From: Polytrichum commune
Lineage: Eukaryota > Streptophyta > Polytrichopsida > Polytrichales > Polytrichaceae
NCBI GenBank assembly: GCA_950295325.1
Contig: OX485803.1
Coordinates: 2,854,001-2,918,000, forward strand
Length of the DNA stretch: 64,000 nucleotides
Direction of reading: 5' to 3'
Positions 1,455 to 64,000 of the stretch are shown piece by piece. Both the position numbers and the translations under genes were made by a program. The notes under the pieces were generated by a model, which saw only the letters and a list, made by a program, of their open reading frames with translations, ran no database searches and was not told the origin of the DNA. The stretch's first letter is position 1, and each line of letters opens with the position of its first letter.

Positions 1455-2734
1455 TAAGAGCATCCTCAGTCCTGAGACCCCGGCTCACGGCAACGGTCAC
1501 TGGCGGGCGCGGGAGCCCGCGGCCCGGGCCAACGCCCTCGCTACCCCTCCCACTATTTTGCAGGTCCCGTCAAAACCCCTCCCGCTCTCGGAACTTTCCC
1601 CTTGTTTGCCATGAGGAACTATCCTCCCGGTAGCAGTACTGGCAGAGGCCACCATGGCACACGTTCCGGCGGGAAAGACACGCAAGAGCAAAAATTTCAG
1701 TGTTGAGGAGGAGAGAAGCTTGTGTAGAAGTTTTATTGCTGTTTTGCAGGACCCAATTTGTGGCAATGGTCAACGCAATTCTGCGTTCTAGGATCGTATC
1801 ACTGCTCATTTCAATCATAGCAAACCACGCTCAAATCCTATGCGCCCAGCTAGGTCGCTAGAGACAAAATGGGGTCACATTAAGCACGACGTGGGCAAAT
1901 TCTGTGGGGCGTACAAGCAAGTGTTTGATTGTAGAGAGTCCGGCACATCCCTTGATGATGTAGTTGAAAAAACGCTCCAGTTTTATCGAGGTAGGCATCC
2001 CAAACAACAACCTTTTGTGTACTTGCATTGTTGGCAGGTTCTGAAGGATGTACCGAGGTGGTGGGACTTGCCCGTGGACGTGCAACGGCGATCAGCTGCC
2101 GTGGAGAGTGGCCCCAGAGGTCTAGGCATGGGGAAACGCAAGTCACCTCCGACAATTGCCCCGGATGTGGCCATGGAAGGTCCAGGTTCTGGTAGCGCTT
2201 CGGATGAGGAGGTCGTTGTCATCAGTCCCAGAGGGTTTCCCCCGAGACCCACCAGGCCGCAAGGCTCGAAGGCAGCAAATGCGGATGTCGTGGCGCAGAA
2301 GAAGCGGGAGAAGATTCTGCAGTCCCAAGCGCACGCTACAGAGACTAGGCGGAAGCAAGCCTCCGCAAGGCAAATGCCATTCAGGACCAATGCGCCATGT
2401 CGCTCTTCACCATGCCGTTGGAAGAGGGCATGAGCGAGGAGGCAAAAAAATATTTCACACTCTGTTGCCAAGAGGAGATTCAACGTCTGGAGCGACGCAT
2501 GCAAGTGGAGCGGCGTCGAGCGGAGCTGGATGAGCTTGAGCACGCCAAGCTGTTGAAGGACCGCAACCTGGAGTCGCCCCGCGCGAGGAACCGCGCCGTT
2601 GCACCACCCGTTGCTCCCGTGGTTACGCCTGCACCACCGGATCCACCCTTGGCGACCATCCCAGATTCTGCATCTGCAGGTCCGGGAGAGATTCCCCGAG
2701 AATTGCCCGTCTTCGCAGGTTCAAGCTTTAACCT

Positions 2735-3705
2735 GAATGTTGGGTTTAATGCTGGATTGAATGCCAAGTTGAGGGCTGGGGTGGGGTGGGTGGGTGGATT
2801 GCTGGGGTTTTTTTTTTTTGTTTAGGGTGAATGCTGGATTGAATGCCGAGTAGAGGGCTGGGGTGGGGTGGGTGGGTGGATTGCTGGGGGTTTTTTTTTT
2901 TGTTTAGGGTGAATGCTGGATTCAGTGCCGAGTTGAGGGCTGGGGTGGAGTGGAGTGGGTGGATTGATGGGTATTTTTTGTTTTAGGGTGAATGTTGATT
3001 GAATGCCGAGTAGAGGGCTGGGGTGGGGTGGGTGGGTGGATTGCTGGGTTTTTTTTGTTTTTGTTTTAGGGTGAATGTTGGATTCAGTGCTGAGTTGAGG
3101 GTTGGGGTGGAGTGGAGTGGGTGGATTGATGGGGTTTTTTTTTTTTTTTTTTTTTTGTTTTAGGGTGAATGCTGGATTGAATGCCGAGTAGAGGGTTGGG
3201 GTGTAGTGGAGTGGGTGGATTGATGGGGGTTTTTTTTTTTGTTTTAGGGTGAATGCTGGATTGAATGCCAAGTAGAGGGCTGGGCTGGGGTGGGTGGGTG
3301 GATTGCTGGGTTTTTTTTTTGTTTAGGGTGAATGCTGGATTGAATGCCGAGTACAGGGTTGGGGTGGGGTGGGTGGGTGGATTGCTGTGGTTTTTTTTTT
3401 GTTTAGAGTGAATGCTGGATTCAGTGCCGAGTTGAGGGCTGGGGTGGAGTGGGTGGATTGATGGGTTTTTTTTTGTTTTAGGGTGAATGCTGGATTGAAT
3501 GCCGAGTTGAGGGGTGGGGTGGGATGGGTGGGTGGATTGCTGGGTTTTTTTTGTTTAGGGTGAATGCTGAATTGAATGCCGAGTAAAGGGCTGGGCTGGG
3601 GTGGGTGGGTGGATTGCTGGGGTTTTTTTGTTTTGTTTAGGGTGAATGTTGGATTCAGTGCCGAGTTGAGGGCTGGGGTGGGGTGGGTGGGTGGATTGCT
3701 GGGTT
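2735..3705 (+). repeat. G-rich minisatellite, about 12 units of 75-95 bp
   Basis: Each unit runs GGTGAATGCTGGATTGAATG, then CCGAGT(A/T)GAGGGCTGG, then a G-tract block, then GGATTGCTGGG and a poly-T tract of 6-22 bases. Unit starts fall near 2741, 2826, 2906, 2987, 3069, 3164, 3247, 3327, 3404, 3480, 3557 and 3639. Length differences come mostly from the poly-T tract. About eight units carry a GGGGTGGGGTGGGTGGG-like block and the others a GGAGTGGAGTGGG variant, with the two types partly alternating. Confidence 0.95.
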
Positions 3706-4060
3706 GAATGGTGAGTTGAAGGCTGGGTTGAGTGTTGCGTTCGGTGTTGGGTTGAGGGTTTGGGTTGAATGGTACTTGAGGGCTGGGTTGAAGGTTGGGT
3801 TGGATGATTGGGTTGAAGGTTGGGTTTAAGACTGGGTAGAAGGTTGGGGTGAGTGCATGGTTGAATGGTGGGTTGAGGGCTTGGGTTTAGTGCTAGGTTG
3901 AGGGTTTGGGTTGAATGCAGGTTGAGGGGTGGGTTTAGTGTTGGGTTGAGGGTGTGGGTTGAAGGCTGGGTTGAAGGGCACGTTTAAGGGTGGGTTGAAT
4001 GCTTGGGATGGTTGGTGGGTTGAAGGATTGGGTTGGGTGCTTTTTTTTCCGGAAGCGGGT
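3706..4060 (+). repeat. Degenerate short GGGTTGA-type repeat
   Basis: After the last long unit the sequence breaks into short irregular repeats such as GGGTTGAATGGT, GGGTTGAGGGCT and GGGTTGAAGG, each roughly 10-20 bp, running up to the intron acceptor. They share the GGGTTGA core with the larger unit and look like a decayed or ancestral version of it. They resemble telomere-like G-rich repeats only superficially. Confidence 0.85.
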
Positions 4061-60050: not shown

Positions 60051-60119
60051 AAACTCACAAGAGAGAAGAAACGCTAACTTTATTGGGGTCAACATGATTG
60101 AAATGGGAGAACGCTATTT

Positions 60120-60480
60120 CCCATGTAGCGGAGGATAAGGGCGGGAGTTCCGGCCATTGGTGGCCCCCGTCGGACGACGTGGCTGTCCACGTTGGACCCG
60201 CGGTTTCACCCGTCGCGCGGCCCTCGCGGTAACTCCGCCCGACCGTAACTCTGCCTCCCTGTAACACTGCACGCGAACGCGTTCACTCTGAGACACTGTG
60301 CGGACACTAAACACTGGGTGCCTGTGACACTGACTGTGCCCGAGAAATTTTTTTTTGGTGACGTCATTTATTGCCATTCCTGTGTAGCCATTGTCGTATC
60401 GTTAGGGTTCCAGTGTTTTGCGTGTGTGTGTGTGCAATGGAGTGCCGTGGTCGGAATTTGGGAGCTAGGAGTTTTCCGAA
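60120..60480 (+). promoter_or_regulatory. GC/CpG-rich block upstream of the unknown zinc-finger-like gene
   Basis: Composition switches sharply from AT-rich to GC-rich with many CG dinucleotides (for example CCCGTCGGACGACG, CCCGTCGCGCGGCC). It precedes a run of open frames and then the spliced gene. It is a plausible promoter region, but I see no TATA box or defined start. Confidence 0.35.
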
Positions 60481-60609
60481 GAGGGTTTCTGGTCGGGTAA
60501 TGATTCGGTGGGATTGCAAATCGCGTTTCGATTCGTTTGTAGAGCACACTGCTGGATCGCCAGCCAACCTAATCGGGTAGATGTTAGAGGTTTAGGCCAT
60601 GAGGGCGCA

Positions 60610-63600
60610 ATGATTACCTCTTCCGACGGAGATGTCATGCCCTGGCATTGGAGAGGTGGCGACGCCTTCATTACCGGCGTTGGACGTCCACACGAGAGCC
60701 GCAAGAATGCATGTAATACTCCACTTGAAAGCCACTATTTGTTGTTGTTTAGGGTTGTATGTACAGCTTCTGTAGCGATGAAGTTTAGCTTGGTTGGGGT
60801 CAGAAAATTGCGTCTTACTAGGTTTTCTGATATTCAAACGCCGAGGAAGACGCAGTTCGGGTTCTGGAGGATTCCTTGGTTTGCGACCCCTCCAACCCTT
60901 CCACCTATTGCTAACGTTCGAGTTATTGGAAGTTCTTCTATACAGTTCATAGATTAGGGTTTAGGCGGCGATTGAATTGCGAAATTGGGGACATCACATC
61001 GTGACGGTGGGGTTTAGGGTTTCGGGTTGAGGAGAAATGCGATATTGGCTCAAAGTGTAGTAGGTATTCATGCGCAATTTTAATGTCCACTCTCTTCCTC
61101 TAATACGAGGCTGGCTTTTGTTCTACATGTTGTTCTCCTTCATTGATTATCCTCTCTCAATCCTCCTACGTGCTGTTCTTGCAGAGACGGTGTCCTCTAC
61201 GAAGAGGAACACAGGATTTATAGGACGGTTTATTGTCAACCTGGATGTGGGTGTGTGATAGGGTTGAAAAGCAGTTTTCCCGGCATATCATATGTCGAGG
61301 GGGCTTGTCCAAACTGCGGAGCCAGGTCACACGCTTTTAGGCCGGAGAAGATGGCACCCGAGCCCGTGACACTGAAGGTGACAATGTATGGAATTCCCTA
61401 CAATGTCACCTACCCTAGTGAGCAGAGAGTCTCCGACCTGAGGGCAGAGTTTGCGACGATGTGTAAGGGTGCACTTAAACCTTGCGGGAAGCGACGGTTT
61501 TTTGTCTGCATATACTGTGGGCAGAACGATTTCAGCAATAAAATGATGCTCAATCGGCATCGTTTTATTGATGGCTGCCCCGAGGCTACATATCCCGACG
61601 GCAAGAGGGCGTTAATACTACCTTACCCCGATTTCAAACCCGGGGAAGGTAAGCGGGTGGAGGTTTTAGGCAAGAAAAATGGAGGGGGTCCGCCGGTAGA
61701 CGGGAAGACGTCAGGGCTTACAAGTACAGAGTCAGCTCTGGACGGATAAAGTCAGGACACGGGGGGGGGGAAGGTGCAGGAGACGAAGAAGAAGACGGCG
61801 AGGTTTCCGGGAAGGGTGCACACGACGTAGAACATAACCTTCATAGAATTGCTGATGAAACAAGCCTCAAGAAGCTGCTGCCTCCACGAGATCTCTTTTG
61901 TGATGTACTTGCCGATGGAGGGCTACCAAGAACCCTAAAGAATCCGCCTAACAAAGGAAAACAAGGCTCGGGGCCGTCACAGGTAAAGAACGGCGTCCAT
62001 CCGCCACCGCAGGACACTGATCCACATTTTGTAGAGGGGGAAGTGAGACTGAAGAGGCAGGTGGGGGTTGTTGTTGGCAAACAGTCTGTTCCAGACATTC
62101 TCTTAAACGGAAAACGTAGCAAACGAAAGGTTGGGACCTGCTTAGAAGAAGTGCCCGCTCTAGGAGCGAGGGTCAAGCGGCAGGCTCACTCGAGTATGCG
62201 GAAGTCCGGTCATAGGGGTTCAGATGTTGCCCATGACGTTGACAACGTGTCTGGAGTTGCGATGAAGACTGCTGCGAAGAAGACGGCAGCCAAAGTCACA
62301 TGGCGTGACACTGAAATTGGGGCGCAGGCAGGCGGAGACGCGGCTGCAGGTGGAAGAGAACCGGATGTACGTAGGGTTCATGTAGCGAAGAGGAAAATGG
62401 ATCAGCGCGATGACGCAGACGGGTTTCACATGTCAGTCTGGGATGGACCAAGTAACAAACAACCTAGGATTGAAGAAGGTGTCAACCGTGGCAATGAAGA
62501 CGTGAGCACCATGCTAAATCACCTTGAACTCATTAAGGAGAGGGCCATTTCCACACTTCGGGAAAGATTTTACTTAAGACGTACATGTATTTGTCGTAGG
62601 GCATCTATTCAGAGTAGACTCCCTCTGTTTCTTTTAAGTACGGAGAATGGACCTCACACATGTGTCAAGCAGGTGGTTTGTGACAGGGTTTGCCCTTCTC
62701 CGATGGATGATGCTCTGCGGGTGGATGCCGATAGAGGTGGCACTACTCCGGAAATACAGTGTCACGACACAGACGGCAATTTTAGTGACTATGATATGCC
62801 TCCCTGTGAGCTAAACCAATACCCGCCTCCATCTCCGACGCTCACGGAGGGTGCAGTGGCGTCCATGTATGTGTGGACGGACGCATCCGTCTTTATTGCC
62901 GAGATGAGGGAATATTGGGCAGAAGGTAAGGGTGCGATCAGGCCTTTCTGTTTTGGCAGTGCAATCGAGGGGAGGTTGAGAGCTAGAGCAAAAGCGTTGG
63001 AGACGTTGGAGGATGCGTACGTCGAAAAACACTGCAAAGCACAAGAGGATTTATGGATGGATACCATCGAGCCTACATGTCCCTCAAAGCCTCCGATGCC
63101 CGCATTGTATCACCTTAAGGAGTATGAAAATTCCGTCGCTCTCCCGTGGACATGGGACTGTCAGAGCGGGGACGACTTCGTTAGGAACTGGGAGAATACG
63201 GTACAAACGGACGAGTTCAAAGACAAACTCATGCGCTGTGCGTACTGGTGGATACGGCGAAAGGTTTGTGTCACTATTCCCGAAACATTCTACAGGTTGT
63301 TTTCTTTTAATTGCGGAGACATGTCATAGAAGTACAGTAGAAATTTAGGGTTGTGACACTGTGACACTGAATTCGCCTATGTTTAACTGGATGCGTTCCT
63401 CTCCCACAGGGTGATAAGAAGGCGCCCCTGCCTGCAGACCTCGTCGAGAGTGTCACGAACACTATCGATAACCTTGTGCAATGCGTCGAGAACGGGGTTC
63501 CGTATGAGGACCTACAAACCCTAAAGGCGTACATTCAGTGGACCACTGACCATGCAGCCTTCGAGGCCGAGCTCCGTAGTTACCGAGATAGAGTGCAGGT

Positions 63601-64000
63601 TGCACACGAGGAGGAGGTGCGGAAGGCACGTGCTGACTTCAAACAGAGGAATGGTCTGCTCACCGAGCAAGTGTTGTGGGATTGGTGCCCCGTTTTCCGT
63701 GTTCTAAGGACGTTCGAAGAAATTTTGCATGGACTCCCTCCATTTCCTTGGCGTCACAACAGTGAGAGTGCTAACCATGCTCCTGGCATTTAGAAATTGC
63801 ATAGCATTATCCGTGTTTATTTCCCGTATCCACATTTATTTTTTCATTGCTGATATTGGAAACTGTGTGTGACTCGTTTTCAGTGGCAGAGGCAAAGGAT
63901 GTCCGCAACGTGCTTCGCGAGACTCGTGTATCGCGGAACCCGCCCCCGCCACTTGCGTACGTGTTTCGGGTCCTGTTTCGTACCACGTACGGATTGTTCA
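60610..64000 (+). CDS. Multi-exon gene of unknown function with cysteine clusters and C2HC-like finger (partial)
   Basis: Not recognised. Supported exons are ~61185-61648, 61756-63263, 63410-63761 and 63884 to the window end. The donors are GTAAGC, GTTTGT and GTGAGA, the acceptors GTCAG, CCCACAG and TTTTCAG, and the phases agree. Intron 61649-61755 removes an in-frame TAA. A possible first exon is 60610-60712 (MITSSDGDVMPWHW). Exon 2 has Cys at 61234, 61246 and 61252 (C-x3-C-x-C), ACPNCG at 61306-61315, and CIYCGQNDF...H...C at 61507-61576, a C-x2-C-x13-H-x5-C pattern that could bind zinc. Exon 3 starts acidic (GDEEEDGE), then is long, basic and low-complexity (KRSKRK, AAKKTAAK), with NLS-like runs. 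It ends in a Trp-rich folded-looking part (VWTDASVFIAEMREYW, CAYWWIRRK). Exon 4 is helical and charged. A nuclear, nucleic-acid-binding role is inference. A pyrimidine tract near 62630 could mark another intron. Confidence 0.6.

Follow-up and report, generated by a model that had tools for sequence, protein, structure and literature searches.

An accessory gene with a C2HC finger and a ULP1-like domain in Mutator-like elements of Polytrichum commune

Only a few of the systems by which transposons counter silencing, including VANC, have been described in detail. In VANDAL21, the protein VANC21 recognises a 9-base motif that is dense in the non-coding DNA of the element and causes loss of methylation there, and the published motifs are YAGTATTAY for VANC21 and AGTTGTCC/AC for VANC6 (PMC5735166, PMC10398659). 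The capture of ULP1 in the VANDAL/KI lineage was placed near the monocot-eudicot split, and the precise function of ULP1 in Mutator-like elements (MULEs) was called unknown in a 2026 review (PMC13317346). These statements, like the others drawn from the literature below, refer to the parts of the cited articles that were covered. MULEs with ULP1-domain genes (KI-MULE/Kaonashi) have already been published, which makes the word "undescribed", used for the gene studied here in an earlier note based on the sequence alone, too strong. The C2HC/helical protein itself was not found in the literature covered (titles and abstract starts, among the matches listed, of open-licence PMC articles on mudrB, moss MULEs, ULP1/Kaonashi, VANDAL and bryophyte anti-silencing), and the table of MULE groups in PMC6446971, as far as that source was covered, has neither a ULP1 entry nor a bryophyte host.

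The element at the end of the window and its two genes

The window, by which we mean the whole stretch of DNA analysed (64,000 nucleotides; C1:2854001-2918000 of a 408-Mb assembly of 64 contigs), ends within a multi-exon gene at 61185-64000 that the earlier note had left unrecognised. Extension into the next 10 kb (L009) yielded the rest of this gene and, just past the window on the opposite strand, the frames of a MULE transposase gene that is convergent with it. The gene is enclosed by a Mutator-like DNA transposon of 11,315 bp (11.3 kb), whose ends are 258-bp terminal inverted repeats (TIRs; 238 of 259 positions identical, 92%, inverted) and which is flanked on both sides by the perfect 9-bp target-site duplication (TSD) ATTGAAATG. 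We are nearly certain that the gene at 61185-64000 is the accessory gene of this MULE. The features read at the locus are:

60097..60105, no strand: left TSD ATTGAAATG, read directly on both flanks
60106..60363, forward strand: left TIR, 258 bp; related ends at C1:41940290 / C1:41951107 and C1:72870222 / C1:72881039
60324..60331, reverse strand: AGTGTCAC motif in the left TIR
61366, 62305, 62758, 63353, 63361, 63449: further AGTGTCAC motifs in the part of the element within the window
61186..61749, forward strand: N-terminal coding part of the accessory gene (ORF 61147-61749), putative 5' limit
61507..61578, forward strand: C2HC finger C-x2-C-x13-H-x5-C; C, C, H and C kept in all 7 sequences of the alignment; Pfam zf-C2H2_11 weak
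61756..63263, forward strand: basic low-complexity linker, then Trp-rich part (ORF 61653-63329), with relatives in the genome
63264..63409, forward strand: GT-AG intron containing two AGTGTCAC motifs; same break in L010 and L011
63410..63761, forward strand: core-region exon (exon 3); its three-paralog profile matches L017, L015 and L016
63762..63883, forward strand: GT-AG intron; same break in L010 and L011, absent in L015
63884..64000, forward strand: beginning of the last long accessory exon, open up to L009 1882
L009 7665-7920, strand opposite to the left TIR: right TIR, by inverted alignment
L009 7921-7929, 7.4 kb beyond the window end: right TSD ATTGAAATG, read directly

Terminal repeats had been proposed as a check, and besides the TIRs of the window element, related ends were found at two further copies. 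Copy 2 (C1:41940290-41951107) is 97-98% alike in the main aligned pieces and has the perfect 9-bp TSD GCAAATAGC on both sides; the more divergent copy 3 (C1:72870222-72881039) is likewise flanked by a perfect 9-bp TSD, TTGGACATG, and each bears the same two convergent genes as the window element. Perfect 9-bp duplications in three elements agree with the 8-11 bp expected of MULEs, and the long TIRs of the window element (258 bp at 92%) are usual, though not universal, in this group. A distant element at C2:8724660-8736653 has TIRs of 66 bp at 88%, and its TSD lies within a G-run and is not decisive.

In the transposase of the window element, the MULE domain PF10551 was matched below the cut-off (E 2.8e-4, 21.7 bits), as in copy 3, L015 and L016, and it was matched above the cut-off of 27.6 bits in the relative L020 (E 6.6e-7, 30.1 bits), whose locus the transposase exons of the window element match at 44-50%. 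A SWIM-like CNC...CKHH was read by eye in the L009 transposase frames, and the Pfam SWIM match in the relative L021 was just under the cut-off. The transposase frame of the window element contains an in-frame stop.

The suggestion of a lineage-specific host gene was not borne out, since the gene lies beside its transposase within a complete MULE bounded by TIRs and TSDs and this copy is damaged. The other suggestion, a host gene derived from a mobile element, held in so far as the gene comes from an element and has a basic linker behind a zinc-binding front; a domesticated host gene at the window locus was ruled out by the position inside the TIRs and the broken frame. A KDZ transposon with a Cys cluster, our first guess, was dropped after the TIRs, the 9-bp TSD and the MULE transposase had been found. 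The GC-rich composition of this end of the window was as described (0.51 for 60106-64000 versus 0.39 for 1-60105). Near the other end, large G/T-rich tandem arrays at 2748-4035, with about 12 copies of an 82-bp unit followed by TGGGTTGAA-type repeats, coincide with high GC skew at 3-4 kb.

The Cys clusters and the finger pointed out in the accessory gene are present (CQPGCGC at 61234-61254, CPNCG at 61306-61320, and C-x2-C-x13-H-x5-C at 61507-61578), as are the long basic middle, the Trp-rich part (62871-63263) and the part running beyond 64000. Unlike the finger, which is kept in 7 of 7 sequences, C-x3-C-x-C is not retained in L011 (C5:17551001-17561000). The N-terminal part had two weak Pfam matches, to zf-C2H2_11 (E 0.0089) and to spectrin (0.076), neither of which reached the cut-off, and structure prediction from the single sequence of the N-terminal 105 residues gave an unusable model (mean pLDDT 40.7). 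In the genome search, the N-terminal part matched C5:17553120 (8.9e-71) and C1:72879606 (2.3e-62); copies elsewhere in the genome, at 98% and 67% for the N-terminal exon on C1, at 62% on C5 and at greater distances, indicate that the accessory gene is not a chance reading. The proposed junctions 63263/63410 and 63761/63884 fit GT-AG, and L010 and L011 break at identical places; the L015 frame continues through the second of these sites. The junction 61648/61756 also fits GT-AG and is in frame in the window copy, but it was rejected as an ancestral intron because L011 reads through in one 461-aa frame (2169-3551, continuous with the linker) and the conserved GEGK(K/R)VEV spans the donor. Around this region, the frames of the window copy, copy 2 and copy 3 are interrupted.

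The ULP1 domain and the gene pair across the genome

The accessory proteins carry the C2HC finger at the N-terminus, followed by a basic linker and a Trp-rich/helical core; those of the relatives end in a ULP1/C48 (SUMO-protease-like) domain. Peptidase_C48 was matched above the Pfam cut-off at the C-terminal end of the gene in L015, L016 and L017; in the closer family, the match was below the cut-off in L011 (0.019) and there was none in copy 3. Residues H139, D154, Q199 and C205 are nevertheless invariant in 5 of 5 aligned ULP1 domains, including those of L011 and copy 3, and the joint ULP1 profile matched an Ulp1-like SUMO protease (6dg4, E 1.5e-6) and SENP8 (2.9e-5) in the PDB. A strong match to a known family, which the earlier note had named as a refutation, was obtained for the element as a whole (MULE) and, in relatives, for the C-terminal domain (C48), and not for the N-terminal half of the protein.

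The relatives combine the C48 match with His-Asp-Gln-Cys, whereas the window copy is without the His/Asp part. Its ULP1-like domain is broken within the last accessory exon (L009 1867-2157 and 2223-2336), and the same 84 residues, His and Asp included, are deleted in copy 2. TTTAGGG-like repeats fill the deletion with 65 bp in the window copy and 79 bp in copy 2. Both fillers (L009 2158-2222, L012 5802-5880) also hold a short duplicated stretch and look like a repair scar with telomere-type filler. The shared junction suggests that both copies inherited the loss from one source; if so, at least one of the two, which differ in their TSDs, moved after the loss, so that at least one transposition did without a protease in cis. 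With its accessory frame broken, the His/Asp part of ULP1 deleted and an in-frame stop in the transposase, the window copy is probably inactive.

Comparison of seven N-terminal sequences, drawn from three transposase classes, revealed a common C-x2-C-x(12-13)-H-x(4-5)-C followed by YP. Against the PDB, the C2HC alignment gave weak matches only, mainly to generic zinc fingers (best E 0.0048). The exon-3 profile, built from three paralogs, matched L017 (E 1.1e-11), L015 (1.2e-11) and L016 (4.8e-9), with the best reversed decoy at 0.74, and the exon-4 profile matched L020 alone, at E 1.1e-4 and 0.0049 against 0.44 for the best decoy. The ULP1 domains of L011 and L015 matched across classes at E 6e-6. 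The exon-2 profile gave nothing above decoys in L015-L017, L020 and L021, so that homology across classes is carried by the C2HC region, exon 3 (L015-L017), exon 4 (L020 only) and ULP1.

Synonymous sites are least saturated between L015 and L017; for this pair, dN/dS was 0.08 in the C2HC region, 0.15 in the core, 0.20 in ULP1 and 0.06 in the transposase. They are saturated in the window family, where dN was 0.17-0.18 in the C2HC exon, 0.30 in ULP1, 0.35-0.47 in exon 3 and 0.35-0.46 at the start of exon 4, with 0.09 in the transposase. The near-identical L016, L018 and L019 gave dN/dS of 0.18-1.21, with too few changes to judge selection. The accessory gene is under purifying selection between families, and its protein is constrained yet changes faster than the transposase; VANC is likewise less conserved than VANA in the part of PMC5735166 covered.

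At least 65 of 137 transposase loci had a match to the accessory gene or to ULP1 no more than 15 kb away, versus a mean of 1.5 and a maximum of 5 in 200 random shifts, for which the lengths of C4, C6 and C7 were rounded. The counts are lower bounds, taken from the best 124 of 371 and the best 106 of 468 transposase matches, the best 124 of 200 accessory matches and the best 150 of 205 ULP1 matches, with the ULP1 list being the first 110 among the matches listed, of 152 reported; three transposase entries duplicating the window element, copy 2 and copy 3 were excluded. Pairing was most frequent at less than 43% identity to the window transposase (at least 59 of 71 loci, all with a convergent partner); at 54% or more it was found for at least 5 of 18 (four convergent, one divergent), and in the 43-53% class a partner was detected for at least 1 of 48. 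This last figure is at least partly a matter of under-detection, since L020, the only locus of the class fetched, has a convergent C2HC gene. Against strict pairing, L021 (63% transposase) has no accessory match within its 10 kb, and two loci with accessory matches, L026 (C5:2839501-2849500) and L027 (C3:48767501-48777500), have no transposase match in theirs; these two could be decayed, solo, non-autonomous or domesticated accessory copies. The two genes form an old pair that recurs widely across this genome.

Several further copies were seen. The C5 accessory gene in L011 lies about 26 kb from its likely transposase (C5:17583250-17585666, 75% to that of the window), and between them stands a 497-aa frame of no assigned family (L011 8479-9969, reverse strand), perhaps with nested insertions. 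The 322-aa accessory exon of the L016 type has six further copies at 93-98% identity, with the frame open in 6 of 7; elements of this type are L016, L018 and L019 and those at C6:12935921, C1:51259667, C2:368674 and C2:58821911. DNA identity is 99.3% between L016 and L018 and 96.6% between L016 and L019, and this family seems to have been active recently. L018, which lies on C2, appears to be inserted within a run of G.

Repeated motifs and the possible role of the accessory protein

The commonest 8-mer of the window family is AGTGTCAC, with 15 copies in the window element, 17 in copy 2, 19 in copy 3 and 9 in L011, and with two in positions 1-60000 of the window, outside the element. This motif is absent from L015-L017 and L020. 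There, other 8-mers lead: GTCCTTCA is found 17 times in L015, 13 in L016 and 12 in L017, and it or the overlapping GAAGGACA leads in L015-L019, while CATGTTAC leads in L020 (15). L021 is mixed, with AATCCGGA leading (12) beside 4 AGTGTCAC and 5 AGTGTTAC. The divergent accessory copy L026 has 8 AGTGTTAC and 4 AGTGTCAC, and its commonest 8-mer is the overlapping TGTTACAA (10, versus a simulated maximum of 8). In 60 simulated sequences per element, the top 8-mer count was 5-9; five of six control segments of the window stayed within the simulation, and the sixth had 14 TCAACCCA, mostly in one tandem array. In L027, the top 8-mer is one tandem array and no dispersed motif was found. Four family groups each have their own over-represented 8-bp motif.

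The motifs are spread along the elements, in 7-13 clusters more than 300 bp apart (window element, L010, L015-L017, L020). With coding limits set by hand, a bias towards non-coding DNA was significant in two of six elements, L015 (14 of 17) and L016 (10 of 13), and not in L010, L017, L020 and the window element (8 of 15 non-coding versus 5.2 expected, p 0.11). The idea that motif orientation tracks the gene strand was dropped (12 of 17 in L015, 11 of 13 in L016, 9 of 12 in L017, 7 of 15 in L020, 4 of 18 in L010 and 7 of 15 in the window element).

By analogy with VANC, we propose, with about an even chance of being right, that the accessory protein serves the element that encodes it as an anti-silencing or activating factor. 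The N-terminal half is predicted to bind the repeated motif of its own family; at the motif sites, the ULP1 domain would strip SUMO from silencing proteins or chromatin, which would reopen the element so that the transposase could be made and act. Against the anti-silencing reading, motifs also occur within coding DNA, L021 has a motif with no accessory match in its 10 kb and L027 shows the converse, and the same ULP1 deletion is found in the window copy and copy 2 despite their different TSDs. The low numbers of detected partners in the two closer transposase classes, the DUF1985 searches without a match and the poor Pfam scores of ULP1 in the close family also count against it. The motifs could equally be transposase sites. 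More tentatively, and with the odds against it, the fusion of a C2HC finger with a SUMO protease may constitute a sequence-specific anti-silencing system of a large and diverse TIR-MULE clade in this plant, with a per-family address (AGTGTCAC, AGTGTTAC, CATGTTAC, GTCCTTCA and others). Such a system would have arisen separately from VANC or else, as its relative, go back far beyond the date given for the ULP1 capture.

The strongest competitor, possible though less probable than an anti-silencing or activating factor, is a second transposition protein that binds terminal and internal repeats and helps synapsis or integration, with ULP1 being secondary. Parallels would be mudrB of maize MuDR and TnpA of CACTA elements. 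The window element carries motif copies within both TIRs (60324 and 71213), and long TIRs enclose its two genes, an arrangement shared with MuDR, which requires mudrB for integration (PMC8224964, PMC6446971). The motifs are, however, spread across the whole element rather than confined to its ends, and a conserved protease domain would be unexpected in a factor acting purely on DNA ends. Capture of a host ULP1 gene and another gene in the manner of a pack-MULE, as passengers with no role in the element, is improbable: ULP1 domains do occur in MULEs and CACTA elements of other plants (PMC2528002), and a broken protease did not keep the window copy and copy 2 from moving or persisting, but the gene has been kept through saturating synonymous divergence with low dN/dS where measurable, is always convergent when paired (in the class below 43%) and is found in three transposase classes. 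A domesticated host gene with a transposon as its neighbour or origin is very unlikely. In its favour, some accessory relatives, such as C5:2840413 and C3:48768213, have no transposase among the best candidates or in the 10 kb fetched. Against it, the window copy has a broken frame and sits next to its transposase, enclosed by intact TIRs and a TSD, and L026 and L027 are candidate genes only.

One genome here offers many related families, some with near-identical copies, each with an accessory protein that changes faster than the transposase and several with a motif of their own. If the pairing of protein and motif is real, this would be a natural series for protein-DNA co-evolution and would make the role of ULP1 testable.

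Comparison with described systems

Maize MuDR (mudrA/mudrB) resembles the present elements in having two genes between long TIRs, and its genes are convergent. The accessory gene here is likewise convergent with the transposase between TIRs, a layout of the mudrB type. To our knowledge, mudrB carries no ULP1 domain. A 9-10 bp TSD and a SWIM-type transposase are further likenesses (group MUDR, table 1 of PMC6446971), whereas mudrB, compared by description only, is a novel protein of unknown function in the parts of PMC8224964 and PMC6446971 covered. The ULP-bearing MULEs of melon, rice and grapevine share the location of ULP1 inside MULEs, and those of melon also include TIR-MULEs with either orientation; they differ in that the ULP1 domain alone, with no C2HC/helical partner or motif, is described in the part of PMC2528002 covered. 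The domain itself resembles the ULP1/SENP SUMO proteases (peptidase family C48) in the His-Asp-Gln-Cys signature and the PDB profile matches of the relatives, and differs in being very divergent, with profile positions 1-113 of 216 outside the best PDB match.

In the VANC/Kaonashi systems (KIU; Arabidopsis VANDAL, KI-MULE), as here, the accessory gene of a MULE includes a ULP1/C48 domain. In KI-MULEs, too, the ULP1 gene is in reverse orientation to mudrA (PMC2528002). VANDAL elements likewise repeat short motifs that are specific to each family, and their accessory protein is less well conserved than their transposase (PMC5735166). The likeness of the VANC motifs to CAGTGTCAC may be due to chance. 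On the other side, an N-terminal C2HC finger is present here, and DUF1985/DUF287 were not detected: for DUF1985, which is present in VANC, hmmscan gave no match in the accessory ORFs scanned, and a genome search gave none in a run whose control matched nothing either. VANDAL and KI elements are called non-TIR (PMC13317346, PMC2528002) and the window element has 258-bp TIRs; since TIRs of 46-174 bp are given for the VANDAL group in table 1 of PMC6446971, the non-TIR criterion is not strict. Of the traits of VANC/KIU elements, the family-specific repeated motif is thus found here and the non-TIR structure is not. Layout, ULP1 and motif pattern match, but on account of the long TIRs, the C2HC finger and the lack of a detected DUF1985, we do not class these elements as VANC, although they may work like it.
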